Positions 5,355-64,000 of a DNA stretch of 64,000 nt are shown piece by piece. The notes beneath the pieces were generated by a model, which worked only from the letters and a program-made list of their open reading frames with translations, was not told the DNA's origin and ran no database searches. The DNA is from Fennellomyces sp. T-0311. Lineage: Eukaryota; Mucoromycota; Mucoromycetes; Mucorales; Lichtheimiaceae. Each line of letters opens with the position of its first letter. Positions within the stretch are counted from its first letter, which is position 1. The translations under genes and the position numbers were made by a program. The stretch is from assembly GCA_025266875.1 (NCBI GenBank), contig JALLLT010000002.1, forward strand, positions 930,001-994,000, read 5' to 3'.

Positions 5355-5922
5355 ATTGATTGTAATGAATTATAAGGTGCCGTCAACATTAAATTCCAGC
5401 TGGCATATATACAGCGTTGATACTACTACATATATCAGCCGAACGATCTAGAACCTTACCCGTTTTCATCAAACCGTCTCATAGATTCAACCAATTTTGA
5501 TACGTGGTCAGCAAAGCTAGTATATACTCGACTCAATGAAACATGTGCTGCTTATTGATTTGTATATAGGTTTCAATGTGATACGTATATGACTAGAATT
5601 GAAAGGCTTCGGGCAAAAGTTTGTTATATCGGGATACGCATTTTCTATGATTCTCCGTCTCCGATTTCTGTCGATGATACAAGAAATTGCTTCAATCATA
5701 TTAAATCATCCGCGAAAAGGTACTGTTTGACCTTTGAGTCAAAGTGCACGACTTATGATACCTAGATTAAACGAATAATATACAGTATACCATCAGTTTC
5801 ACTTTCCTTGCAGCTCTAATTCGTTCGTTAAGTTGTCTCAGGTACACCCGACGATGATATAAAAAAGCTTTGGTTCAGGGGTAATTTGGATGATCATTAT
5901 CTTATATACCACTCCTCATATA
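5355..5922 (+). promoter_or_regulatory. Intergenic and promoter of thaumatin-like copy B
   Basis: No gene is seen in this spacer. A TATA-like TATAAAAAA begins near 5860, about 60 nt before the ATG at 5923. An in-frame upstream ATG at 5890 exists, but it would push the signal peptide 11 residues inward, so 5923 is preferred. Confidence 0.5.
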
Positions 5923-6600
5923 ATGTTGAACATTATCAAGGTTGCCTCGGTCCTCGCTTTCGCTGGCGTTAGCTTGGCTGCTCCTACCGGCAATTCCACA
6001 TCATCTGGCGACGTTACTGTTACTATCAAGAACAGCTGCAGCAATGACCTTCACATCTACAAGTTGACCAATGGTCAAGATGGCGACAAGGAATCCAAAG
6101 ACCTTTCTGCTGGTTCATCCTACGACTTTAAGCTCGACTCCAACTGGGCTGGTCGTTTCTGGGGCTGTCGCGATGGCGAATCCAACTGCGACCAATATGG
6201 CTCTGCTGTCTCACTTGCCGAATTCCTGTTCAAGGGATACGAAGGTAGCGATTTCTACGATATCTCGTTTGTCGATGGCTTCAATATCCCCATGAGCATC
6301 AAGCCTGAAGGCAAGTCTGGTGACGGATACGACTGTGGTGCACCTACTTGCGCTACTCTCCCATCGTGTCCCGACAAGTTGAAGGCTGACAAGGGTGCTT
6401 GCAAGAGCGCTTGTGCTGCTTTTGGAACCGACGAATACTGCTGCACTGGTGATTACAACGATCCCAAGAAATGCAAGGCCAGCAAATATGCTGACAAGTT
6501 CAAGGAAGGCTGTCCCGATGCCTACAGTTACGCGTACGATGATGCCAAGAGCACCTTTGGCTGCAAGGCCAACAAGTACACTGTTACTTTCTGCCCTTAA
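5923..6600 (+). CDS. Secreted thaumatin-like protein, copy B
   Basis: Intronless, 225 residues, same architecture as copy A: signal peptide 1-19, NST glycosylation site, thaumatin fold with 14 cysteines and terminal FCP. Relative to copy A I see three residue changes: Gly to Asp in the KLTNGQ-GDK loop, Glu to Lys in KAS-YADK, and Tyr to Phe near the C-terminus. I count only two base changes against copy A over the first 630 nt, but nine in the last 48 nt. Upstream and downstream flanks do not match the other copies beyond a few bases around the ATG. The start at 5923 is chosen because it puts the hydrophobic signal peptide at the N-terminus, as in copies A and C. Secretion to the wall or medium is expected. 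Confidence 0.93.
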   Translation: MLNIIKVASVLAFAGVSLAAPTGNSTSSGDVTVTIKNSCSNDLHIYKLTNGQDGDKESKDLSAGSSYDFKLDSNWAGRFWGCRDGESNCDQYGSAVSLAEFLFKGYEGSDFYDISFVDGFNIPMSIKPEGKSGDGYDCGAPTCATLPSCPDKLKADKGACKSACAAFGTDEYCCTGDYNDPKKCKASKYADKFKEGCPDAYSYAYDDAKSTFGCKANKYTVTFCP

Positions 6601-7958: not shown

Positions 7959-9215
7959 TTACAGGAGTCTATCCTTATCCTCGGAGGTCAATCGAGTTGT
8001 TCTAGCCTTGCTCTTGTAGTCATCCCAAGGGAAGTAAGCTCCGCAAATGCGGCGATGACCGGTGAACGCACTACGGCCATGAAGGACACGCCAATTGTCG
8101 AACAGTACAACGCGACCTGGTGCCAAAGGTTCCCACAATTCATTCTCGGGCTTCTTGAGAAGGTCATTCCATAAGAACAAAGCATCATAAAATGCTTCGA
8201 GCTGAGAAGAACTCAAGTGGTTCAACGCCGATCGATCGTCATTGTTGTACCTAATTTGATAAAGCTCACCATCGGGTCCGTGGTTCAGAATTGGATTTGC
8301 TCTAGGCGTAGGTACGATCAGGACGTCCTCATCACCAGCCGAGTGAGTCGGGATCAAAGTTGAGGACAAGGTACGGTAAGCTTCGGGTGACTTTTCTTTC
8401 AACTGGCGAGCGACTTCGAATCCATCCACAAACAAGGAATCACCACCTTTTCCATTGAATTCGAGCTTGTGGAACATTTGCATACCGGCTGGTTCGCTAA
8501 AGTATGTGTTGTCCGTATGTGCGCCCAATGCCAAGGTTGTGTAGGCAGTGTCGGCATGCGCCAAATCTGCGGTGAACGACCACATGCCTTGGGAATAATG
8601 TGTCTCACGCAAGAAGCTAATGCGACGAGCAAGCGCCTCTGTTGCTTCCACAGTGGTTGGCGTACCATCAACAAAGCCAATACCATACACTTCGAGATTC
8701 TCGAGCCATTGACGAAGACCATCGTCGGATTCCATAACTGCGTCATGCTGGACAACAGGCAAAGGGTTCAACGACTCGGAAGTCCATAACTTGGGCTTCT
8801 TTCCTTGCAGCGGTTCGGATGTACGCAGGATTGGACTATACGAATGGGTATGTAACCAGTCCCACTTGTAGTGCGAACGATGTCCGTCTGGCCAGGTCAC
8901 TTCCAGTCCTTCAGGGGTACTGTCAACTGCCGTGGGTGCAATGTCACGCGGAATCGAGAATGTGTCAACAAGACGCTGACGTGTGGTGCCATGGTAGCAT
9001 TGCTCGCAATGACAATGGTCTCTGAGCCAAAAGTGGTGAAAAACAGACGTCTTGCGCGCATTCCAGTCAAGGAAGATCTGCTTGTCGTTCGCAATGCCCG
9101 CGCGTTGAGGCACGTTGCCCGAACCAGCGAGCTGCTTACGTGCGTTGGCCTTGTGAAAACGGGCAGTCGTGGTGGAAAAGGCGCGTCTACCCGTAAGGAG
9201 GAAGAGTCGGCTCAT
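7959..9215 (-). CDS. Trimethyllysine dioxygenase (carnitine biosynthesis), mitochondrial
   Basis: Intronless, 418 residues from the ATG at 9215. This start is chosen because it exposes a mitochondrial presequence (MSRLFLLTGRRAFSTTTARF). An upstream in-frame extension to 9377 has no family counterpart. Residues ~48-125 are the N-terminal Zn-binding domain with the HCHCEQCYH cluster. The double-stranded beta-helix 2-oxoglutarate/Fe(II) core carries HTD (His233 and Asp235), the distal His379 in WRVLHGR and a 2OG-binding Arg nearby in TGHRRICGAY. NWRVLHGR-FTG-R-CG-Y is characteristic of trimethyllysine dioxygenase. Gamma-butyrobetaine dioxygenase is the alternative in this two-member family. The reaction hydroxylates N6-trimethyllysine, the first step to carnitine. 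A TATA-like element lies near 9290 on the minus strand. The lack of introns contrasts with most neighbours. Confidence 0.88.
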   Translation of the reverse strand: MSRLFLLTGRRAFSTTTARFHKANARKQLAGSGNVPQRAGIANDKQIFLDWNARKTSVFHHFWLRDHCHCEQCYHGTTRQRLVDTFSIPRDIAPTAVDSTPEGLEVTWPDGHRSHYKWDWLHTHSYSPILRTSEPLQGKKPKLWTSESLNPLPVVQHDAVMESDDGLRQWLENLEVYGIGFVDGTPTTVEATEALARRISFLRETHYSQGMWSFTADLAHADTAYTTLALGAHTDNTYFSEPAGMQMFHKLEFNGKGGDSLFVDGFEVARQLKEKSPEAYRTLSSTLIPTHSAGDEDVLIVPTPRANPILNHGPDGELYQIRYNNDDRSALNHLSSSQLEAFYDALFLWNDLLKKPENELWEPLAPGRVVLFDNWRVLHGRSAFTGHRRICGAYFPWDDYKSKARTTRLTSEDKDRLL

Positions 9216-10411
9216 ATGGTAAGCAGTTGTTAGGCTTGTGAAGGCTAAAGAAGTAGAAAAAAAAGCGACCCCGCAACGAAAAATCGGGTGATATAAAGGC
9301 GCCTTGCTGGTTTTAGTCACACACTCATGGCTGAGCTTCTTCCGTCGTCCCTCCGCATTTCGATGCCAGTTACACACGGCTCAACTTCTCATTAGTTCCA
9401 CCGTGTTTTATGTTTTGCGGGGTACTCTTCAGGATACCCATCACGTAAGCACGATAAATCAAAATATTTAAACTGGTTTCTTGCATATTCTACTTCATAG
9501 CAACACTAGATCATACAGTGTTGCAATGCACTATTGTTTGACAGTTTCATCCTGCAGGAGCCTGCGAAAATGCGACTCAATTCAACGCCGTAATCGCATG
9601 CACTGGGAATGGCGCGGGGCATATGATCCCCAGCCCGAATCGTATTAAGAACGACTTGCTGTGCATGAACCACTCGTCACTACGTATAAAATCGTATTCG
9701 TCATGTACATTGATATTAAGTAGTTGCTAAGCAACCGGTTGGAATTCACATAAAAAGTGAGTGAATTCCCAGAAAAATAAGTTCCAGTCTCATTCTTTTG
9801 TGATGTAAACAAAAAAGCAGGCTAGAGTTACGGTGATGAGTATCGTATAGAAAATGCAATCACCATCAGGGTCAAACAGCAGCCAGATATGCCCGCTAAA
9901 TTAAGCGAAGTATGGATTCATGCATCATATTTTAGCCAACGGACGCGGATGCAAGACATTTTTTTTCGAATAAGATTTCGAGGCAGTGCCCTTTAATAGG
10001 TTATGACTCAAAAACCCGCGGCTTCAAGGGCGCACAACTGGATCAGTCTGGTACAATACTGGGATAAAAAGAGCCAGTCGACTTAAGGTATATGCACTTA
10101 AAGTCATATTATGTAACTTAATCGATCCACTATCAAGTTTTATTAAGAACGCAAACTGAGAGCCATGTTAACTGTATTCATCAAGCAGCCAACTACCGTA
10201 CATGGTCCCGTTCTGCGATACTGCTGTCTGCAAAGCAGAATGTAGGTGAAGCATTAAAAATTGGTCTCGACTGTTTTTTCCTTTAGGCCTGGTCGTTTCT
10301 GTTATATTCATTATACGCTGCAAACTAGGCCTGCCAAGCAAGTCACACATGATTGGTTCATTCGACTCAGTGGACAATTCGGTGCTCTGTGTTCTTTTTT
10401 TTTTGCAACTC
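9216..10411. other. Intergenic between divergent dioxygenase and SR-protein genes
   Basis: About 1.2 kb shared upstream region of two divergently transcribed genes. A TATA-like element for the dioxygenase lies near 9290 on the minus strand. A pyrimidine run directly precedes the ATG at 10412. No ORF or RNA gene is supported. Confidence 0.5.
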
Positions 10412-11832
10412 ATGTCTTATTACGGTGATCGTGATCGCGACCGTAGCCGCCGTCCCTCGCGCAGACTATATGTCGGTAAGTAGATCATGCTAATGATTGG
10501 TATGGGAACGCAGATTGACACCCGATGGTGCAGGAAATCTAAACCGTTACGTGCGTGAACGTGATGTCGAGCGTCTCTTCTCCAAACTTGGCAGAGTAAG
10601 GGACTTGGCACTGATGGTAAATACGATGCATTTCCGATATGTATCGACTGTTTTAACACGTGTGCGGTGGCGCCCTTGTAGTCCAATTTCGCATTCATTG
10701 AATACGATGTAAGTCATATCACAGCAAGAAGTTTTTTCAGCCTTTCTTGACCAAGCCGTCGTGCGGTTTTTGCATATGATTAACACGCTCTCTAGGATGA
10801 ACGGGGTTCGTTTCATTCTCTTTGTTAGATGGCGATGGTGTATTGTTTTTTTGTCTTTGGGTTGGCGGGGGCGCTTCGCTTTCGGTGTGTTGCGTGTGTA
10901 AAGCCTTGTCATGCTGCCGCTGCTTGCCCGAAGACGGGGTTGATTTGAGTTGACACGATCCGATAACACAAAAAAAACGTTTGCATGCAGACGCGGAAGA
11001 CGCTGTTAGGAATCTCCACGGTACACGTCTGGAAGGCGATCGAATCATTGTAAGCCGTTGCACCCCCTTTTTGCGCTGGTGTGCCACGGACTAACCTGTC
11101 ACTAACAGGTTGAATATGCCAAGAATAAGCCACGCGGCAGAGGCTACGACGCGCGCGGCAGAAATGACAAATTTGGCGAACGTTGCTACAATTGCGGCGA
11201 AGTTGGTATGTTGTGTACGCGCAGAGTTAGAGGTGCATATAACTGATTGCATCCACGCTAATTTAGGGCATATGTAAGTGTGCATTGTGGTGATGCTAGT
11301 ATAAGCGTGCTAATGACATGGATCCTTTGCCATCGATCGTGATAGTTCGAGAGAATGGTAAGTATTGCTATGCAGAACAAGGAGTCGAAATTAATATCGC
11401 TTATTTATTTCTCTGCCAGCTCGCTACCAAAGGGAAGGTAAAGAATGACCACCTCTTTCGTAACTTATGCATGCTAGGAATATTCTTTCACTCACGCATA
11501 CTCTAGTGGCGAACGCGCTATGAGATTCGAAGAAAACCGCTGCTTTGAATGTGGCCAACCCGGACACATGGCTCGCGAATGCCCGTACGTAGCCCATATG
11601 CAAGGGATGACTGGAATTTAATATGTACCTGAATAGTGACCGCGGCGGCAATGGCAGCAACGGCGGCGGAGGCGGCGGCGGTGGAAGTGGCAATGGTGGA
11701 AGAAGACGTTCGCGCTCGCCTCGTTCACGCAGTCCAGCACCAGCAAGACACTCCAGAAGATACTCAGGCGAACGTGAAGATCGCAGCCGTTACGGTGCTG
11801 AAGAGGATCGATTCGATGACAACTTTAGATAG
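10412..11832 (+). CDS. SR-type RNA-binding protein: RRM, two CCHC zinc knuckles, RS tail
   Basis: Eleven coding exons: 10412-10475, 10534-10616, 10682-10708, 10796-10805 (10 nt), 10991-11049, 11109-11205, 11267-11273 (7 nt), 11346-11357 (12 nt), 11420-11437 (18 nt), 11507-11584 and 11637-11832. The sum is 651 nt, 216 residues, and all introns are GT-AG. Residues 18-90 form an RRM: RNP2-like RLYVGNL, then SNFAFIEYDDERDAEDAV. Zinc knuckles follow at Cys107-Cys110-His115-Cys120 (CYNCGEVGHISREC) and Cys138-Cys141-His146-Cys151 (CFECGQPGHMAREC). A Gly-rich spacer and an RS/RD tail end the protein. The order matches plant RS2Z/RSZ and animal SRSF7-type splicing factors, which recruit the spliceosome at exons in the nucleus. 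The 10-nt exon restores the DDERDAEDAV loop, and the 7- and 12-nt exons restore the first knuckle. The longest intron (10806-10990) is a candidate for regulated splicing. Confidence 0.88.
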
Positions 11833-12581
11833 CCGCCAATTTCTGTCAAAAGACAACTTCATTGCTTCCTGTGACTTTCAGTAATAAAGTTATGTTGTTC
11901 ATCCATCACTTTGTGTACCACTGCGTTCTAGATTGCCACCGGATTTCGTGAGTTCAAAATTTTATACGCGAAACAAAATCCCAGCTCTACCCGATAAATC
12001 ACTCAGGGGGGCTTCTATCGTTATGTGACAGCTTGTCATACCGCCGTACAACAAGCTCATCCGTCACCTTGAATGCCAGTTCTCACTTGAGGGCCATTCC
12101 TAAATCCCTACATGATATGTCAATTCGCTTCCGACTCCTGACCATTTCCTCGCCATCATCTTTGCGCAGAAATTGTACGATACTAGTCAGCTATAAGGCA
12201 ATGTGTGTCATGTTCAATCAGCTGTATAATGGAGTCAATGGACAATCCGTTATCTAGTTTACGAGTTGTCAGTGTAAATCAAAACGTTATTACACATACA
12301 TTGAAGAAACGCAGGAAACTTCTAGGTATATAGAGTTGGTGTTTACAGTATATACACAGTGTAAAGGTGTTATGGCAGGGTGTTGGCTGCAGGGCTAAGT
12401 ATACAAGGAGTAGAATTTAATAACGACAATTGTTCGAGAATGCTAATATGTCAAGGTCGTCTGTAACAGAGGACAAGGAACAGTATATAAGGAAGAAGAT
12501 AAACACTGTCAATATTTTTCTTTTTTACTTAATCATTTGCATATCTGCATTTTCATTTCATCCTTCTTTTCTGCATAAAGC
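11833..12581. promoter_or_regulatory. Intergenic; promoter of the secreted repeat precursor
   Basis: No gene is seen. A TATATAAGG element at about 12483 lies roughly 95 nt before the ATG at 12582, followed by a pyrimidine-rich leader, as expected for a highly expressed secreted protein gene. An AATAAAG string at about 11883 may end the SR-protein transcript. Confidence 0.5.
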
Positions 12582-14549
12582 ATGACCCGCATCATTACTC
12601 TTTCCATGGTATGCGCCCTAGTGGCAAGCACTTTTGTAGCAGCCGCTCCTGCTGCCCCTATACATCATCCAGCCCATGTCAAGACTTCTGCACCCGCAAA
12701 GCAGGATGTCGCCGCCAGCTTGCGCCAACGTAAGAAAACTCCTACATTAGTGGAATAATATACTGAACTTTTTCTACAGTCGAGGCACAGCATGATTATT
12801 ATGGTATAACTCGCAATTCTGACATATATTGCCACATAGAACAATATTGAACATTTCTGCGATATAGATGAAATCACTAAGCGTACTGCATCCAAGCATC
12901 ATTCCAAGGTTACCAAAGCTGCCAAGGAGAGCCCAGCTGAGCGTCAACGAAAGCGTAAGTGAAAATAAATAAAGAGAATATATTACAATGTAACTGATCT
13001 ATTACTTTTTTTAGTCGAACAGCAGCACGACTATCTTGGTAATTTTGACATACATTGATCCTTTTTTGTCATCGACTAAATTTGAATACAGACGAGATCA
13101 CCAAACGTGGCGTCAGCAAAAGTCATGAAAAGGTGAAATCCGCCAAAGAAGATCCTGTTGCTGAACAGCTCAAGCGTAAGTCAACAGCACAGTTCACAAT
13201 GTAGATAAGAAAAAAAGTTGATTTATCGTTATTTTTCACAGTTGAACAACAGCACGATTATCTTGGTAAATAAGCAAATTTGATATATATCCCTTCATAG
13301 GCTTATTTTGAATATTAGACGAGATTTCGAAACGGAGCGCCACTCATCACCAGATCAAGGCGAAACCTAAACACCATGAAACTGCTGCAGAGCATCAGCG
13401 TAAACGTAAGTAATCAAAAAGCCCCTATTACCCATGCTTCTGAGGAGTTCCGACCCATTAATTTTATATCTTTTTCTAGTGGAACAGCAGCATGATTATC
13501 TTGGTAATATATTTTGACATATAGGGTAAATTTCTCGATAAACACTAATATACATATATTAGACGAGATCACGAAACGTGGTCTCCTGTCAGGCTTCCTT
13601 CATCACAAGCACAAACACCATGGTCCCAGTCACGTTACTCCAGGTGTCCCATGCGATGAAAACGGAAACCCTATTGGGCCTATCTCCGGAGGTGGTAGCC
13701 ACGGCGGAAGCTCTGGTTATGGTGGAGGTTCTGGTTACGGAGGCGGTTATGGTGGGGGCTCTGGCTATGGAGGCGGTTACGGCGGTGGCAGCAGCGGTGG
13801 CTATCATGATGGTGATCATGGAGACGAAGATCTTGACGGTAATTATTTTTTATGAATTTGATAGCAGCTCTGTAACGTTTTCTCCTATACACAGACGAAT
13901 ACACCAAGCGTGATTTCATCCCTCAACCGTACACTGGACCTCGATCTTTCACCACACCCACGTCTTTCACCGGTCCCAGATCTTTCGTCGGTCCTCTTGG
14001 TTCACAAGAAAGACTGAACATTGGATCCGTTCCGTGCAAGAGCAACATTAACTGCGATTATACTCGTTACCAGATGGTCGAACGTAAGTCCTTTGCCCTG
14101 CATTATGCATAATCTATATTGATGATGGCCCAATTATCACAGTCTTGGACGACTTTGACTTTGATGATGATGGTAAGAATATCTGCATGCGCATGTTGAG
14201 GCATGAAGTTCTCATGTATATTGTAGATTCTATCTCCTGGAATTACTTCAGAAGCCCCAACGCCCGATACCACAAGATTCGATGCCACAATCACTTGGAT
14301 GAGTACGAGTGTCATGTCAAATACTCGCGATTCTTGGATCGTAAGTTTACTTATACTTTTCATCAAATATGAAGAAAATCTAAGGGTATTATAGTTCTTG
14401 ATGACTTGGATCTCGATGACTTGTTCGATCGCGATGATGACGATGATGAGGACGTCGATGACGGTTAGTGTTACAATAACAAAATCGATCAGCTCCAACA
14501 AACTAATCGCACTTTCTCAACAGAATACACCAAACGCTCGGTCGCCTAA
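12582..14549 (+). CDS. Secreted repeat precursor with six KR (Kex2-type) sites
   Basis: Fourteen exons: 12582-12729, 12780-12803, 12868-12954, 13015-13038, 13092-13175, 13242-13265, 13319-13405, 13480-13503, 13563-13838, 13895-14083, 14143-14172, 14227-14340, 14395-14463 and 14524-14549; 401 residues. All 13 introns are phase 1. Residues 1-22 are a signal peptide ending near FVAAAP. Four 24-nt exons encode L-E-(A/Q)-Q-H-D-Y-(L/Y), and each is followed by an exon opening D-E-I-(T/S)-K-R. DEYTKR recurs twice later. KR pairs end at residues 63, 100, 136, 173, 265 and 398, giving three units of 36-37 residues, then a Gly/His/Tyr-rich unit and a Cys-containing unit. Acidic exons (LLDDFDFDDD, LLDDLDLDDLF) look like decayed repeats. 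Cleavage by a Golgi kexin and release of peptides is inferred. No known domain was recognised. Confidence 0.85.
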
Positions 14550-14660
14550 ATTCATTCATACTACATAGAAAGCTTATTTTTCATTTGCATACTATTTGCA
14601 TAAATTCAACTTGGATTCATATAATAAACTGCATACTACTTATTACACTTTTTACAAGAC

Positions 14661-15456
14661 ATGAAACAATCGATCGGGATTGATGTTCCGATTTCCTTTA
14701 TGCCGCTCAAAACGCTTTGGGTTCCTGTGCTTGCCGCCGTTCTGGTTCTTCTTTCGGCTTACTTTTACACAACTACTACAACTACACCGCATTCCATCCC
14801 AATGACTGGTACAGAATTCCAACTTATTCTTCGTGAAGGGATTACGGGTGGATTTGCCCCGCCCACCGTTAGGTAAACATGCTGAGATAAGCGTGGGTGT
14901 TTTTTCAATGGAATACTCATGCATGTTTATCAATGTAGAAAGCACATTGAAATCAAGGGTGACAGTGCGTCGGGCGCAACACTTCTCCATGCCAACCTGC
15001 AACCTGGCAGCAAAACGGACTATGTTACCCAGACAGGTGCTGTGTCCACGTAAGCATAAAAAGGAACTCCACCCCTTACTCGGAGAAAGGAACATGATAA
15101 GCAGTAACGTATCCTATTTCCAAACAGTGAGCAGATCTTCATCTTGTTGCAAACGGTAAAAGCACAGCTTCAGGAATTGCCCACCGAGGATCCGGTGGGC
15201 AGTGAGGATATCTACGGTCTGGATACTTCGATTCTGTTCTATGCAGACGGATTCCAATGGGGCAATGGTAAATAAGCTCGCTTTTTCTCCTGAGGAGAAT
15301 GAAAGGGTTTTGTTTTAACAATGGCTTTGGGCGATAGGCGGACGTGAAGGATGCGTAGGAGGCGAGTCGACGCGTCAAGCAACAGATGAACAGAAACAAA
15401 CGTTCGCAGCCCTTGTGGAGTTGATCAGTAACTTTGGTGCACAACATGCTGCTTAA
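14661..15456 (+). CDS. Hypothetical single-pass membrane protein
   Basis: Four exons: 14661-14872, 14939-15049, 15128-15267 and 15338-15456; 193 residues. One N-terminal hydrophobic helix (about residues 18-36, LWVPVLAAVLVLLSAYFY) has no clear cleavage site, so it is probably a signal anchor. A Thr run follows, then a soluble domain of about 140 residues with TGTEFQLILREGITGGFAPP, a short linker and the pattern TSILFYADGFQWGNGGREGC. I do not recognise the family. The frame is kept across three GT-AG introns, which supports a real gene. It lies 111 bp after the secreted precursor and 170 bp before the G-beta gene, all on the plus strand. Confidence 0.7.
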
Positions 15457-15626: not shown

Positions 15627-16854
15627 ATGATGAATGGTGACAGTGAGATCGCTGGTCGGATTGCAGCCGCGCGACGAGAGGCTGAGGCGCTGAAAGAACG
15701 TATCAAGCAACGGAAAGAAGCTCTCGGCGATAGCACTTGTAAAACAAAAAAGAAGAAACCCGGTAGCGTCTTAAGTATTAACCTGTTTTTCGATAGTACA
15801 AGAAATGGCCAAGGACGTGGAGCCGTTGCCACGGATTGTTATGAAGGCACGTCGAACTTTGAAGGGTCACCTGGCAAAGATTTACTCGATGCATTGGGCA
15901 ACGGATAAGCGACATCTCGTATCAGCGTCGCAGGATGGCAAGTTGATTGTATGGGACGCTTACTCGACCAACAAAGTGCACGCCATCCCGCTGCGATCGT
16001 CGTGGGTCATGACCTGTGCCTATTCCACCTCTGGGAATTTTGTTGCGTGCGGTGGTCTGGACAACATTTGCTCCATTTACAACCTCAGAACACGCGATGG
16101 TCCCGTCCGTCCTGCTCGTGAATTGTCTGCACACACCGGTTACTTGAGCTGCTGCCGCTTCATCAACGACCGTCAGATTTTGACAGCTTCAGGCGACATG
16201 ACTTGCATGCTGTGGGATATTGATGCCGGTGTCAAGACCGAGGAGTTTGCAGATCATGCGGGTGACGTGATGAGGTTTATATATTATTGGAATTGTGTGT
16301 ATCCATGGTTACTAAAGTGTCTTTATTCATTGTTAAAAAAAGCTTATCACTTGGGCCCAATCCAAACGTCTTTGTCACCGGAGCCTGTGACACAACATCA
16401 AAAGTGTGGGACATCCGAACAAAACGCTGTGTTCAAACGTTTGTTGGGCATGAATCCGACGTCAATGCAGTGCAATTCTTCCCCAACGGTGATGCGTTTG
16501 CTACCGGTTCCGATGACGCCAGCTGTCGGTTATTTGATCTGCGTGCCGATACTGAACTATGTACTTATTCCCACGAATCCATCCTGTGTGGCATCACCTC
16601 CATCGGCTTTTCAGTCTCTGGTCGTCTTTTGTTCGGTGGTTATGATGATTACAACTGCAACGTTTGGGACACGCTGAAAGGCGAACGTGTAGGTGTGTTG
16701 TCGGCTCACGAGAACCGTGTATCATGCTTGGGAGTTGCGACGGATGGCATGGCATTGTGCACCGGCAGTTGGGACTCGACGCTAAAGGTAATTAACACAC
16801 ATTTCCGGATAGATCAACTCTCCCTAACCCTTCCGGCCATAGATTTGGGCGTAA
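15627..16854 (+). CDS. gpb1: Heterotrimeric G-protein beta subunit
   Basis: Four coding exons: 15627-15738, 15797-16274, 16343-16787 and a last exon of 12 nt including the stop (16843-16854); 348 residues, the usual size. Residues 1-45 form the N-terminal coiled coil that pairs with G-gamma ([20 protein letters not shown]). Seven WD40 blades follow, with GH/WD markers such as [42 protein letters not shown] and CNVWDT. The terminal microexon reads Ile-Trp-Ala-stop and completes STLKIWA, the canonical C-terminus of G-beta. Without it the frame would run on into an unrelated sequence. The protein works at the plasma membrane with a G-alpha in pheromone, nutrient and cAMP signalling. The MM start follows AAA. 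Confidence 0.95.
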
Positions 16855-17453
16855 TTGTCTCCACGCTGCTTTTTTGTACTTTTCTAGTTTGCCATTGTGG
16901 CGTCCGATTACATAATATATTGAAAAAGAGTACCTTTTCCTTCATTATTAGTTTCATATACGCGTTTATAAGCATATTGCTCCATTTCTTTTTCGTTCAA
17001 GAAAATAAATCCAATCTTTCTCCATTGAGGTCAGAAGGTTATTAGCAAATATTATCCTACTTATTTTACCAGCAGAAACTTTAATTCTGGCTGTGCGAGG
17101 AGAAGAAGCTGATGCAGAAATATGAAATACCTGTCTGCCACCAGTTTCTTACACGCCATCACGCGGCTCAATTATCAGTTGATTGCCAACATACAGATGA
17201 CAAACGTATTTCTTTCCATTGTTGTGAACCGGTGGTGCACCTGACTTGCGAAAAAGAGAGATTGGGGGGGGGCGTGTAAAATGCCCAGGGTACGATTCGA
17301 CGGGGGAGCTCCGCCGTGAGATGATGCTCAGTTTTTACTCTTGCATACACAAGAGTCCCCAAAGGTTCTGGAACCTATAAAGTCGGCGATAATTCCTTTG
17401 AACCCCTTCTCTCTCTTTTCTTTTACTCTTTCTTCAGTTATACTCATACAATC
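16855..17453. other. Intergenic; TATA box for the next ORF
   Basis: No gene is seen. CTATAAAG at about 17386 sits about 65 nt before the ATG at 17454 and is followed by a long CT-rich tract, a typical fungal core promoter. A run of eight G occurs at about 17264. Confidence 0.45.
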
Positions 17454-21050: not shown

Positions 21051-21728
21051 TTAAGGGCAGAAAGTAACAGTGTACTTGTTGGCCTTGCAGCCAAAGGTGC
21101 TCTTGGCATCATCGTACGCGTAACTGTAGGCATCGGGACAGCCTTCCTTGAACTTGTCAGCATATTCGCTGGCCTTGCATTTCTTGGGATCGTTGTAATC
21201 ACCAGTGCAGCAGTATTCGTCGGTTCCAAAAGCAGCACAAGCGCTCTTGCAAGCACCCTTGTCAGCCTTCAACTTGTCGGGACACGATGGGAGAGTGGCG
21301 CAAGTAGGTGCACCACAGTCGTATCCGTCACCAGACTTGCCGTCAGGCTTGATGCTCATGGGGATATTGAAGCCATCGACAAACGAGATATCGTAGAAAT
21401 CGCTACCTTCGTACCCCTTGAACAGGAATTCGGCAAGTGAGACAGCAGAGCCATATTGGTCGCAGTTGGATTCGCCATCGCGACAGCCCCAGAAACGACC
21501 AGCCCAGTTGGAGTCGAGCTTAAAGTCGTAGGATGAACCAGCGGAAAGGTCTTTGGATTCCTTGTCGCCGCCTTGACCATTGGTCAACTTGTAGATGTGA
21601 AGGTCATTGCTGCAGCTGTTCTTGATAGTAACAGTAACGTCGCCAGATGATGTGGAATTGCCGGTAGGAGCAGCCAAGCTAACGCCAGCGAAAGCGAGGA
21701 CCGAGGCAACCTTGATAATGTTCAACAT
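21051..21728 (-). CDS. Secreted thaumatin-like protein, copy C
   Basis: Intronless, 225 residues, with the same signal peptide, NST site, 14 cysteines and FCP end as copies A and B. It differs from copy A by Glu to Asp in IKP-GKSG and Tyr to Phe near the C-terminus, plus a handful of silent changes. Its last 48 nt are identical to copy B and unlike copy A. A TATA-like TATAAAAG lies about 55 nt upstream on the minus strand. Upstream and downstream sequence is unrelated to the flanks of A and B. It is 14 kb from copy B and has the same orientation as copy A. Confidence 0.93.
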   Translation of the reverse strand: MLNIIKVASVLAFAGVSLAAPTGNSTSSGDVTVTIKNSCSNDLHIYKLTNGQGGDKESKDLSAGSSYDFKLDSNWAGRFWGCRDGESNCDQYGSAVSLAEFLFKGYEGSDFYDISFVDGFNIPMSIKPDGKSGDGYDCGAPTCATLPSCPDKLKADKGACKSACAAFGTDEYCCTGDYNDPKKCKASEYADKFKEGCPDAYSYAYDDAKSTFGCKANKYTVTFCP

Positions 21729-23341
21729 TATGGTATATATAAAGTATAATGATGAAAAAATGTTCCTGAGAATGCCTCTTTTATATTCGTTTTATCGGTG
21801 TACCTAACCGAGACTGAGAGCGAAACATGGAACGGGCAACCGAGGCTGGATTGGTGTTCTTTAGGTTTCATAACAATCAGTATCATTGCGGAACTTTTTT
21901 TGTTTCTGTTTTTCCATGGAAAGACTTACTTGCTTCTAAATGGATATATAAACGCTCTGCACACATCATCATACTCTTTTAGTTCATTAGTTACATAAAG
22001 CAATCGTTTAGAATTAAAGTAAGTTTGAGATGCTGTGGATATGGCGCACTTTGGGCCTTTGATAATCTGAAGAAAAGCGACAGGGGTCTGGATAAGCGGG
22101 CATGTTTCAGTCGTTTGAAAAAACGATAGCCAGGGACCTCATACAAAGCGGACGTACTGTATTGAGCGTCCTGGCATCGCATATACAACAGTCTCACGTT
22201 TAATGCAAACCAAAGGAGGCTCAGTCATACTGGGGCTTGAAATTAGATTAGGGCAAAGCTCGACTGTAAATAAGTGAAGGGTTATATACAAAAGTTGACA
22301 GTAATGAAGATTCAACTTATTCGGGGGAGAACTAAACGGGGGGTCTACTGTATCCAGATTTAAAGCTTACCCGAACCGCGTATATAGAACTCTCCGACTA
22401 TAATCCACTTCTCATGTCCCATATAACTGAAAAGTGAGTTAGTAAGGGCATCGTAATCCTTTGGTTTGGGGTATTTTGAATGTGCATAGGCTTTGACATT
22501 CTTAATGTCTGAGGAAGTGGCACAGATGGCCCGGAATTCTTTTGGTACTTTGGGTATTGCTGCTTCAGTTCATTTCTTCCATTTCTCATATCAATCCTTT
22601 GGGCTCTTAAGCTACTGCGCAATTGCCTACTCATCCGAATGTCCGGCATGTTACCGCAACTCCTATCTCACCTCCGTACGGTTTACATATTTGAATCCCG
22701 GTGTCCAAGTGTGTCTTGGCCTTCTTGATAGCTTTGTACGGGTCATACAACGCCTAATCGTCACCAGATTTGTATATATGAGTTTGGATTGTGGATTGGT
22801 ACGTCTGGATTGCGAGACATTGGGCGGAAATGATGGTCCAGGGTGATCGGAATACGTATGTAAAACGGCGTTCAAGACAGAGATCTATGAGTCCAGCGAG
22901 TGGTTCATATTGTTTGAGGTACCAAAGTTTGAGACCAGCCGACACCCATTGATATATTTTGAGTTTGTCAATCTTTGACCCTTTTATGCAGCGCTTTCAG
23001 CTGTGCAATGATCATTGGATTCAACATTATACTACCATAACGACAGCATAATTCAGGCACACTTTCGATCGATGGTTTAAACCCTTTTGTATCACTTAAC
23101 CACCGGGCGATCCCGTCTGTGCGCCTTTCCGTTATTTTACCCATTTATGTCGAATAAACATCGCAGGAGAACGGCGATCCAAATCTATTGCGCGGTCTTT
23201 TTATGCGGCGCATCAGGGAGGGTGTTCTGGACTAGTCTTTTCACACCTTTTCTACGCACTTGCTATTTTACTTGTTTGATATACAAAAAGAATGAAAACT
23301 AGAGAGTACAATTTAATGTAGTAGTATAGATATACAAAAAG
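21729..23341. other. Intergenic with possible decayed ORF
   Basis: About 1.6 kb without a supportable gene. On the minus strand at about 22640-22945, two neighbouring frames read like degraded coding sequence (MSAGLKLWYLKQYEPLAGLI, then ALYDPYKAIKKAKTHLDTG in another phase). I do not recognise the source. The plus-strand open frames over the same bases look like shadows. Confidence 0.35.
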
Positions 23342-62577: not shown

Positions 62578-63965
62578 TCATGGGCAGCTTATGTGGAACT
62601 GGTTCTTACTAGTCATCTTCATTGAATATCGAAGCTCGTCTCTGCAATACGTAATTAGAGCACTGTGGTGTTCAACATGGCAAGAATCCAGACGGATATA
62701 ATGCAGGCAATTGACTTTGGTCTTGAGAAACGCCTTTAATCCCGCATCGCTCACTTTGCCACAACACACCAACACCAATTTTGTCAGTTCCTTCCGTTCA
62801 GCCAGCTTACTGAGAAAGGATTTTGAGCCCAACTTTAGATTCGTCAACTCCAAGTGCTGTATATGCGGACCCAGCTCATCCACAAACTTCGCTATCCCGA
62901 CGTCTGTCGTAGGTCGCTTATTTCTTCTAAGTGGGTCGCCCATACCTAGCTTCAAAATTCGCAGATTCTTGTTTAACGCCGCAGCAGAGAGTAAATCGTC
63001 CTTCAACACATCAAAACCTGAGACACACAATCGTTCCAAGGATGCTGTTGTGAATGCAATAACCTCCAATAGATTGCTGAGACTAGCAGTAGTGGATCGA
63101 AGACGAAGTTTTGGGTTCAGTACGAGTTCAAAGTTGCGCAAGTTTTTCAACGTACTGAATGTCGTCAGCACTTGATGGTTCTCCAAAAGCCTCGCATCGA
63201 GTTCGTGTAATGTGAGGTCGCACAGTAGATGGCACTGGGATAGAAAAGAGCTTATACTTTCACATTGCCATGGTAAATTGCGCGTAAATAACTGTCGCAG
63301 TCGTGTTGTTTGTATTCCTTTAAGTTGGTCCCACGTGATGTCAGCTATGTCGAGAAGGTCATAGTTGTCAATATGAAGCGCATGGAGCGTTTGTTGGTGT
63401 CGTCTTATGATCGGGATGATTTCATTGGGTCCGTGACCAAGAGCGACGCTGGAGAAAAAGGTTCGAAGCTGGCAACGGTTGCTTGGTGAGAATTCGTTTG
63501 TTGTCGGTTGCCAGTGATACGGAGAGTCGTCCTGATCAGGCCAGTAACACTTTAATTGCTCCAGCTGTGGGCATATTTTGAACAGATGATGGAAGTCAAT
63601 CACGTCGATGTTATGATTGAGGAGACCAGGCCATTGAAGCCATAAGTGCAGGCTTTGCAAATTGGGACACAGACTTAGGAATCGTATTAACGGGCGCAAT
63701 CGAACGTCGAGACGAAGAGTTCGGATATTTGACTGTTGCATCTGCGCAGCACAAGCCATGTGATCTCCTTCATAGGACCCCGCCATAATTCGGAGGCTTT
63801 TGCTGTAAGTGCAGGAGAAATCAGACAACTGTGGATATGCTAATACGATGTCGGCAATACACACTTCGCATTCGAGCTTGTGAAAGTGAAGCGTGGAGGC
63901 ACCTATGCGGCGCAATAGACCAATCAATTGCTGGGACTTGGGCAGCGTAGTGGTTTTGTTGAACT
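62578..63965 (-). CDS. LRR protein, probably F-box type, 5' end outside window
   Basis: Last exon of a longer gene. An acceptor TTTGCAG ends at 63966 and the exon opens with two bases of a split codon, then EFNKTTTLPKSQQL. The frame has no ATG near its start, so earlier exons lie beyond the right edge. About 460 residues contain irregular leucine-rich repeats of the RNI/F-box type: NIRTLRLDVRLRPLIRFL, PNLQSLHLWLQ, PQLEQLKCYW, ASLERLCVSGFDVLKDD, KNLRILKLGMGD, HIQHLELTNLKL and ELTKLVLVCCGKVSDAGLKAF. Such proteins usually carry an N-terminal F-box and select substrates for SCF ubiquitin ligases; here the F-box is not in view. The C-terminus ends RYSMKMTSKNQFHISCP. Confidence 0.8.
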
Positions 63966-64000
63966 CTGCAAATGGAACAAATAATTAATTATCGCGCGTA

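Follow-up and report, generated by a model that had tools for sequence, protein, structure and literature searches.

On the forward strand of the 64-kb window, the whole stretch of DNA analysed here, GT-AG splicing of positions 12582..14549 yields a predicted gene of 14 exons in one open frame. The frame runs from an ATG at 12582 to a TAA at 14547–14549 and encodes 401 residues. A TATA-like element, TATATAAGG (12484..12492, +), assigned by consensus only, lies 98 nt upstream of the ATG, and a poly(A)-signal-like AATAAA (14623..14628, +) lies 74 nt past the stop. The gene directly upstream (~10250–11832, +) has an RRM match just above cut-off (E 0.0003) and an Arg/Ser-rich C terminus, and its predicted product looks like an SR-type splicing factor. 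Downstream, another gene starts near 14661, where two ORFs have no Pfam match, and a G-protein beta subunit is found at 15775–17042 (+). Three thaumatin-family genes (1732–2451, −; 5863–6597, +; 21054–21791, −) sit within ~11 kb on each side. The best named matches of a trimethyllysine dioxygenase ORF at 7962–9380 (−) are 84% identical (Dichotomocladium elegans) and 83% identical (Lichtheimia ornata), both species belonging to the Lichtheimiaceae, Mucorales; the host is accordingly a member of the Mucorales and, judging from this one gene, probably of the Lichtheimiaceae. At the far end of the window, a 468-aa open stretch (62581–63984, −) has no Pfam match at E 0.01. Rfam returned no features in the window at the gathering threshold.

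From its N terminus, the protein consists of a signal-peptide-like start, four motif-ending units, a Gly/Tyr-rich unit, an acidic unit with four cysteines and a final SVA before the stop. All exons lie on the forward strand. Exon 1 (12582..12729) encodes the signal-peptide-like N terminus and the His-rich start of unit 1, and closes within the first half of that unit on the final C of a split Leu codon; mini-exon 2 and DEITKR follow. The four mini-exons are 24 nt each, one reading LEAQHDYY (exon 2, 12780..12803) and three LEQQHDYL (exons 4, 13015..13038; 6, 13242..13265; and 8, 13480..13503). An intron divides their Leu codon as C|TN, and a trailing G begins the Asp of the following exon. The core exons behind them open with DEITKR (exon 3, 12868..12954), DEITKR (exon 5, 13092..13175), DEISKR (exon 7, 13319..13405) and DEITKR (exon 9, 13563..13838), and continue into the His/Lys-rich start of unit 2, the starts of units 3 and 4, and the Gly/Tyr-rich unit 5, respectively. 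Core exon 10 (13895..14083) adjoins exon 9 directly, with no mini-exon between them, and encodes DEYTKR and then the Pro/Phe-rich start of unit 6 with two Cys.

The remainder of unit 6 is built from two further acidic exons and the exon between them. Exons 11 (14143..14172, 30 nt, LLDDFDFDDD) and 13 (14395..14463, 69 nt, LLDDLDLDDLFDRDDDDDEDVDD) repeat the C|TN ... G|A frame seen in the four mini-exons, and from frame and position we infer that they are homologous to them. Exon 12 (14227..14340) begins DSISWNYF and carries two Cys; its junction with exon 11 reads DSISWN, with KR absent after the mini-exon. Exon 14 (14524..14549) supplies (D)EYTKR-SVA-stop. With this frame present in exons 11 and 13 as well, the cassette plan spans most of the gene, which we read as one plan, duplicated and diverged. 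Exons 2–13 measure 24, 87, 24, 84, 24, 87, 24, 276, 189, 30, 114 and 69 nt, every one divisible by 3, and the 13 introns (50–74 nt) are all GT-AG and all in phase 1. Re-derivation by GT-AG splicing bears out the coordinates, motif, unit sizes and KR count of the initial annotation. All 13 introns that it placed in phase 1 are so in the spliced model, the four 24-nt exons L-E-(A/Q)-Q-H-D-Y-(L/Y) followed by D-E-I-T/S-K-R were each located, and the two longer units ending in DEYTKR are the Gly/Tyr-rich and the acidic 4-Cys unit. Its three near-equal units of 36–37 residues do have KR on both sides, but four units in all carry the terminal motif, unit 1 included.

Cutting after KR beyond residue 22 gives fragments of 41, 37, 36, 37, 92, 133 and 3 aa. 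Residues 23–401 contain six KR, where shuffles average 1.36 and reach six or more in 22 of 20,000 trials. All six stand in one consensus (DEITKR three times, DEISKR once, DEYTKR twice) with varied codon usage. The last DEYTKR lies 3 codons upstream of the stop, a position that fits processing better than a folded domain. Within residues 23–205 the best internal 14-mer match is 14/14, and the best of 60 shuffles is 9/14. The corresponding 14-codon block, pooled over the six pairs of its four copies, gives pN 0.07 and pS 0.83; the block is short and two single pairs exceed a pS of 1, which makes these rates rough. Variable sites fall at third positions in 11 of 16 cases among the four copies, 7 of 8 among copies 2–4 and 4 of 4 among mini-exons 4, 6 and 8. 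Since the copy differences are mostly silent, the motif and its KR look selected. This substitution pattern, together with introns whose similarity is near shuffle level, indicates that the mini-exons are almost certainly coding and that the KR motif has been kept by selection, now or until recently. The first 22–23 residues of the units, which form linkers, are poorly conserved (18–55% pairwise), and the highest conservation adjoins KR.

The introns fall into two classes. Those of the C class (1, 3, 5, 7, 10 and 12) follow an exon-final C, with the next Leu codon split C|TN, and have a GTAAG donor in 6/6 cases; those of the G class (2, 4, 6, 8, 9, 11 and 13) come after an exon ending in G, with D or E as the next residue, and lack the +5 G in 5/7. 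In eight of nine pairwise intron comparisons the similarity is close to shuffle level (z <2), and one pair reaches z 3.3; introns 2 and 6 are the sole pair of the nine to exceed all 40 shuffles. Identity is 58% for introns 2 and 6 and 58% for 4 and 8, and among introns 2, 4, 6 and 8 four of the six pairs lie at 56–64% and one at 70%. Intron 11 (14173–14226, 54 nt) contains no in-frame stop, and its retention would add 18 residues with the frame intact. The pyrimidine tract was dropped as a mini-exon mark: its values of 0.73–0.87 before mini-exons 2, 4, 6 and 8 overlap those of core-exon acceptors (0.47–0.80), and exons 11 and 13 are low (0.60 and 0.47).

A TGACATA-type word, ATTYTGACATAYA, is common to introns 2, 4 and 8, and intron 6 has a weaker version of it; all four of these introns follow a 24-nt mini-exon. 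The copies, all on the forward strand, read ATTCTGACATATA in intron 2 (12816..12828, from intron position 13), ATTTTGACATACA in intron 4 (13042..13054, from position 4), AATTTGATATATAT in intron 6 (13277..13290, from position 12) and ATTTTGACATATA in intron 8 (13511..13523, from position 8). Three of the five forward TGACATA in the 64-kb window fall in this gene's introns. None of 200 shuffle sets of introns 2, 4, 6 and 8 reaches the observed score (27 versus a shuffle maximum of 26 at length 10; 33 versus 32 at length 14), for a word that was spotted before testing, with a margin of one point and a best length-14 set that omits the intron-4 copy. Introns 1, 3, 5 and 7 have no comparable shared word, 190 and 157 of 200 shuffles reaching their scores. 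A genome-wide pattern for the word behind GGTA, whose minimum gap excludes the intron-4 copy, has four matches, two of them in this gene, and its reversed control none. At another genome locus (L058) the same word is placed branch-site-like just before a 3′ splice site, and its CTGAC/TTGAC core resembles what we take to be the branch-site consensus. The intronic word may thus be a duplication relic, a branch site or a regulatory element.

The hydrophobic start of the protein (mean hydropathy 1.77 over residues 1–19 and 1.90 over 7–25), with an A-x-A end identified by eye, supports the signal peptide proposed in the initial annotation. Hydropathy is at most 0.21 in all windows from residue 25 onward, leaving the chain free of membrane segments beyond the predicted signal peptide. 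The kexin-precursor layout proposed with it also stands, as far as the definitions used in two surveys of such precursors are applicable. Umemura 2020 (PMC7329392) asks for three or more tandem repeats, each 8–100 aa long, between KR, KK, RK or RR, and in our own re-count units 2–4 supply three of 36–37 aa (pairwise identities 25/36, 23/37 and 17/36). Le Marquer 2019 (PMC6339444) asks for at least 4 fragments after a KR/RR cut and repeats that occupy at least 15% of the protein; here there are seven fragments, and the repeats make up 27% (3 × 36 of 401).

A profile search of the genome places the kexin-type P-domain (PF01483) above cut-off at two loci, L052 and L053, and a 375-aa open stretch at L052 matches the solved kexin structure 1ot5 at E 1.9e-130. 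By eye, both loci show a subtilase stretch before the P-domain and a membrane-anchor-like stretch after it. After KR trimming, the predicted products would measure 39 (depending on signal cleavage), 35, 34, 35, 90, 131 and 3 residues. DPPIV_N-family matches occur at two genome places. The post-KR dipeptides are TA, GV, SA, GL, DF and SV, and general STE13 trimming is unlikely because just two of the six (TA and SA) are X-Ala or X-Pro. UstYa/DUF3328, whose genes would be expected beside a ustiloxin-type RiPP (dikaritin) precursor, has no match in the genome, nor in any of the 14 control genomes of that search. A Pfam scan of 33 ORFs in the window, three small ones and 30 out of a list of 108, showed no UstYa either.

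Protein searches covered 5.8 billion proteins and required shared exact 5-residue words, so that distant relatives can escape. The first search, probably swamped by Gly-rich words, found no homologue at E ≤ 0.01 among 7,999 top word-sharing candidates; with the Gly/Tyr stretch and part of the Asp-rich stretches masked as X, none appeared at E ≤ 1 among 4,478 candidates. The neighbouring trimethyllysine dioxygenase ORF, used as a control query, matched 1,206 of the 8,000 scored proteins at E ≤ 1e-20. Its recovery of Dichotomocladium elegans and Lichtheimia ornata indicates that the searched set covers fungal proteins. We found no Pfam family above cut-off for the 401-aa protein, its two weak matches (E 0.017 and 0.054) falling in families that we take to be helix-rich. 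A relationship of the 4-Cys part to a solved structure was rejected (best E 0.07). As the initial annotation had suggested, no named family with this motif emerged from protein, Pfam or literature searches for the motif letters. The gene is therefore an orphan among predicted proteins at word-search sensitivity, a status limited to predicted proteins because genes with 24-nt exons may be mis-annotated in relatives.

No paralogue emerged from searches of the organism's own 45.6-Mb assembly. The full protein has at least 9 matches there at E ≤ 1, eight being this gene and one a Gly-rich stretch at E 0.29. A mini-exon pattern has at least 12 matches, this gene's four copies with 0 mismatches and the other eight all with 3 (reversed control, 5). 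A core-exon pattern has at least 42, five of them in this gene (reversed control, 26). No cassette was seen in the 25 of 37 non-self core-exon matches inspected in context, 7 of which belong to a single near-identical repeat that reads DEFTKS, without KR. An 18-base word of a dispersed repeat makes up 12 of the 42 core-exon matches. The near-identical copies of this repeat (L022, L025, L028, L038, L045, L048 and L049) read DEFTKSKCNSNNLFS in one frame, and it is probably a mobile element.

The gene anatomy, the repeats, the codon-level conservation of the motif and the kexin genes are present in the DNA itself, and they are best explained by a cassette-duplicated, secreted and Kex2-processed repeat precursor (KEP), a reading that we consider probable. 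Processing by Kex2 is suggested by the signal-peptide-like start, the six DE(I/Y)(T/S)KR, the kexin-like genes and the agreement with the KEP surveys. The precursor's splicing, secretion, cleavage, trimming and role are all predicted from sequence. The signal peptide would direct the chain into the ER, kexin in the Golgi would cut after each D-E-[IY]-[TS]-K-R, and a carboxypeptidase would remove KR. Exported products would then comprise four related peptides of 34 to ~40 residues ending HDY(L/Y)DEI(T/S), a Gly/Tyr-rich 90-mer and an acidic 4-Cys 131-mer. The N-terminal part would have expanded by duplication of a two-exon cassette of a 24-nt mini-exon and a core exon. The products may act extracellularly in association with wall or matrix, as the smut repellents do; we consider it unlikely that they are mating pheromones. 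This wall or matrix role is a tentative assignment by analogy, based on the Rep1 precedent and on the length and Gly/Tyr-rich composition of the products. Against the KEP reading, the word-based searches found no homologues showing persistence of KR between species, and KR is absent at the exon 11/12 junction.

Because conservation peaks beside KR and is low in the linkers, the motif may serve as a tag for processing or sorting and not as the active peptide. In this variant of the KEP model, LEQQHDYLDEITKR would be the tag, with the variable His/Lys-rich stretches and the Gly/Tyr and 4-Cys units as its cargo. A nearly invariant tag beside such divergent linkers, and the sharing of DE(I/Y)TKR by quite different kinds of cargo, would be expected of it; LEQQHDYL is missing before the KR closing units 5 and 6, however, and so is not required at every site, and we regard this variant as rather unlikely. 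A little less likely still is an uncut secreted repeat protein in which the LEQQHDYLDEITKR repeats form helical or adhesive wall modules and KR is incidental. Charged, Lys/Glu/Gln-rich units, the sub-threshold Pfam matches to presumably helix-rich families and a helical moment of 0.50 for the 14-mer LEQQHDYLDEITKR, a value taken without shuffle comparison, are consistent with such modules. Yet the same context surrounds every KR, including those of the unrelated Gly/Tyr and acidic units and the one near the stop, and an amphipathic helix over the 18 residues AERQRKLEQQHDYLDEIT was rejected, 2,349 of 5,000 shuffles reaching its value. Finally, the mini-exons could be chance matches within longer introns, or the gene a pseudogene. 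The failure of word-based protein searches to find homologues would fit such an error in the gene model, but all four mini-exon copies are flanked by AG and GT, three of them differ only silently, and eight of nine intron pairs are near shuffle level; we judge it highly improbable.

Regulated splicing would be an attractive, though unsupported, extension of the KEP reading: mini-exons or two-exon cassettes would be skipped or kept, altering the peptide set. Exons 2–13 are symmetrical, and simulated skips of mini-exons, core exons and groups kept frame and stop in 11 of 11 cases. The donor contrast between the G and C classes and the word shared by introns behind mini-exons also fit this idea. 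The symmetry claimed in the initial annotation as permitting skipping or duplication is thus real, but the 13 phase-1 introns cannot be counted as independent of one another, since they could go back to no more than two initial events. Cassette duplication accounts for most of the uniformity of phase, which therefore argues only weakly for selected skipping, and we dropped it as independent evidence. The intronic word was seen before testing, with its one-point margin and its intron-4 copy outside the best 14-mer set, and is possibly a relic or branch site, given the 58% identity of introns 2/6 and 4/8 and its placement at L058. Regulated cassette splicing is accordingly doubtful in our view. 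More doubtful again is the specific proposal that splicing of phase-1 cassettes chooses the KEP peptide set with the TGACATA-type word as control element, which would make the gene a fungal counterpart of mosaic neuropeptide-precursor genes. If it held, K-LEQQHDYL-DEITKR would become K-HEITKR whenever a mini-exon was skipped, the cut site being retained, and leaving out a mini-plus-core pair would cost the set exactly one peptide. Retention was also simulated: introns 3 and 7 lead to ...QRKRK-stop and intron 5 to LKRKSTAQFTM-stop, the extra KR arising where the donor C|GT, preceded by a Lys codon, is read as Arg. With intron 3 or 7 retained, the protein would thus stop at K-R-K (KRKSTAQFTM for intron 5), gaining a new KR and losing the LEQQHDYLDEIT tail. 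Were the cassettes differentially spliced, one gene could vary the fungus's secreted peptides.

The KEP class is known, and the exon-cassette build is the unusual part of this gene. It shares with KEPs a signal peptide and at least 3 similar units between KR that make up more than 15% of the protein, and differs in carrying its units on duplicated phase-1 exon pairs with a 24-nt mini-exon. It forms a compact record of repeat-precursor growth by whole-cassette duplication, the frame unbroken. Larger units are also described for Mucoromycota KEPs in the text of one survey (PMC6339444). Neither 'exon' nor 'intron' appears in the main texts of PMC6339444 and PMC7329392, and in that of PMC9769878 'exon' is absent and 'intron' occurs once, for cDNA cloning. 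An exon-cassette KEP was not found in these three main texts or by the literature searches. As both surveys, by their main texts, start from predicted proteins, precursors divided among 24-nt exons may be wrongly annotated and so escape them.

The Rep1 repellents of Ustilago maydis likewise derive several peptides from one precursor, a likeness of layout, and the main text of PMC9769878 describes these peptides as forming amyloid-like fibrils. Ascomycete alpha-pheromone precursors are also secreted with KR-bounded repeats, but their STE13 XA/XP after every KR is found here at two of six sites. The Candidalysin precursor of Candida albicans, Ece1, with units of about 30–35 residues, is again comparable in layout, and nothing in this gene suggests a lytic peptide. 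According to the text of PMC6339444, that precursor repeats non-identical Kex-cut peptides of which only one has the known function, and Mucoromycotina pheromones are apocarotenoids. SP7-like effectors of Rhizophagus are secreted, hydrophilic tandem repeats from within the Mucoromycota; the main text on them describes a conserved intron before the first repeat and contains no occurrence of 'Kex' (PMC11333574). For exon size, the nearest likeness is the Xlr2 microexon of Trichoderma, a very small exon in a filamentous fungus, a group for which, per the abstract, functional microexons had not previously been described (PMC11121469). There the microexon acts as a transcription-factor switch, whereas here the small exon is part of a repeat cassette in a secreted precursor.
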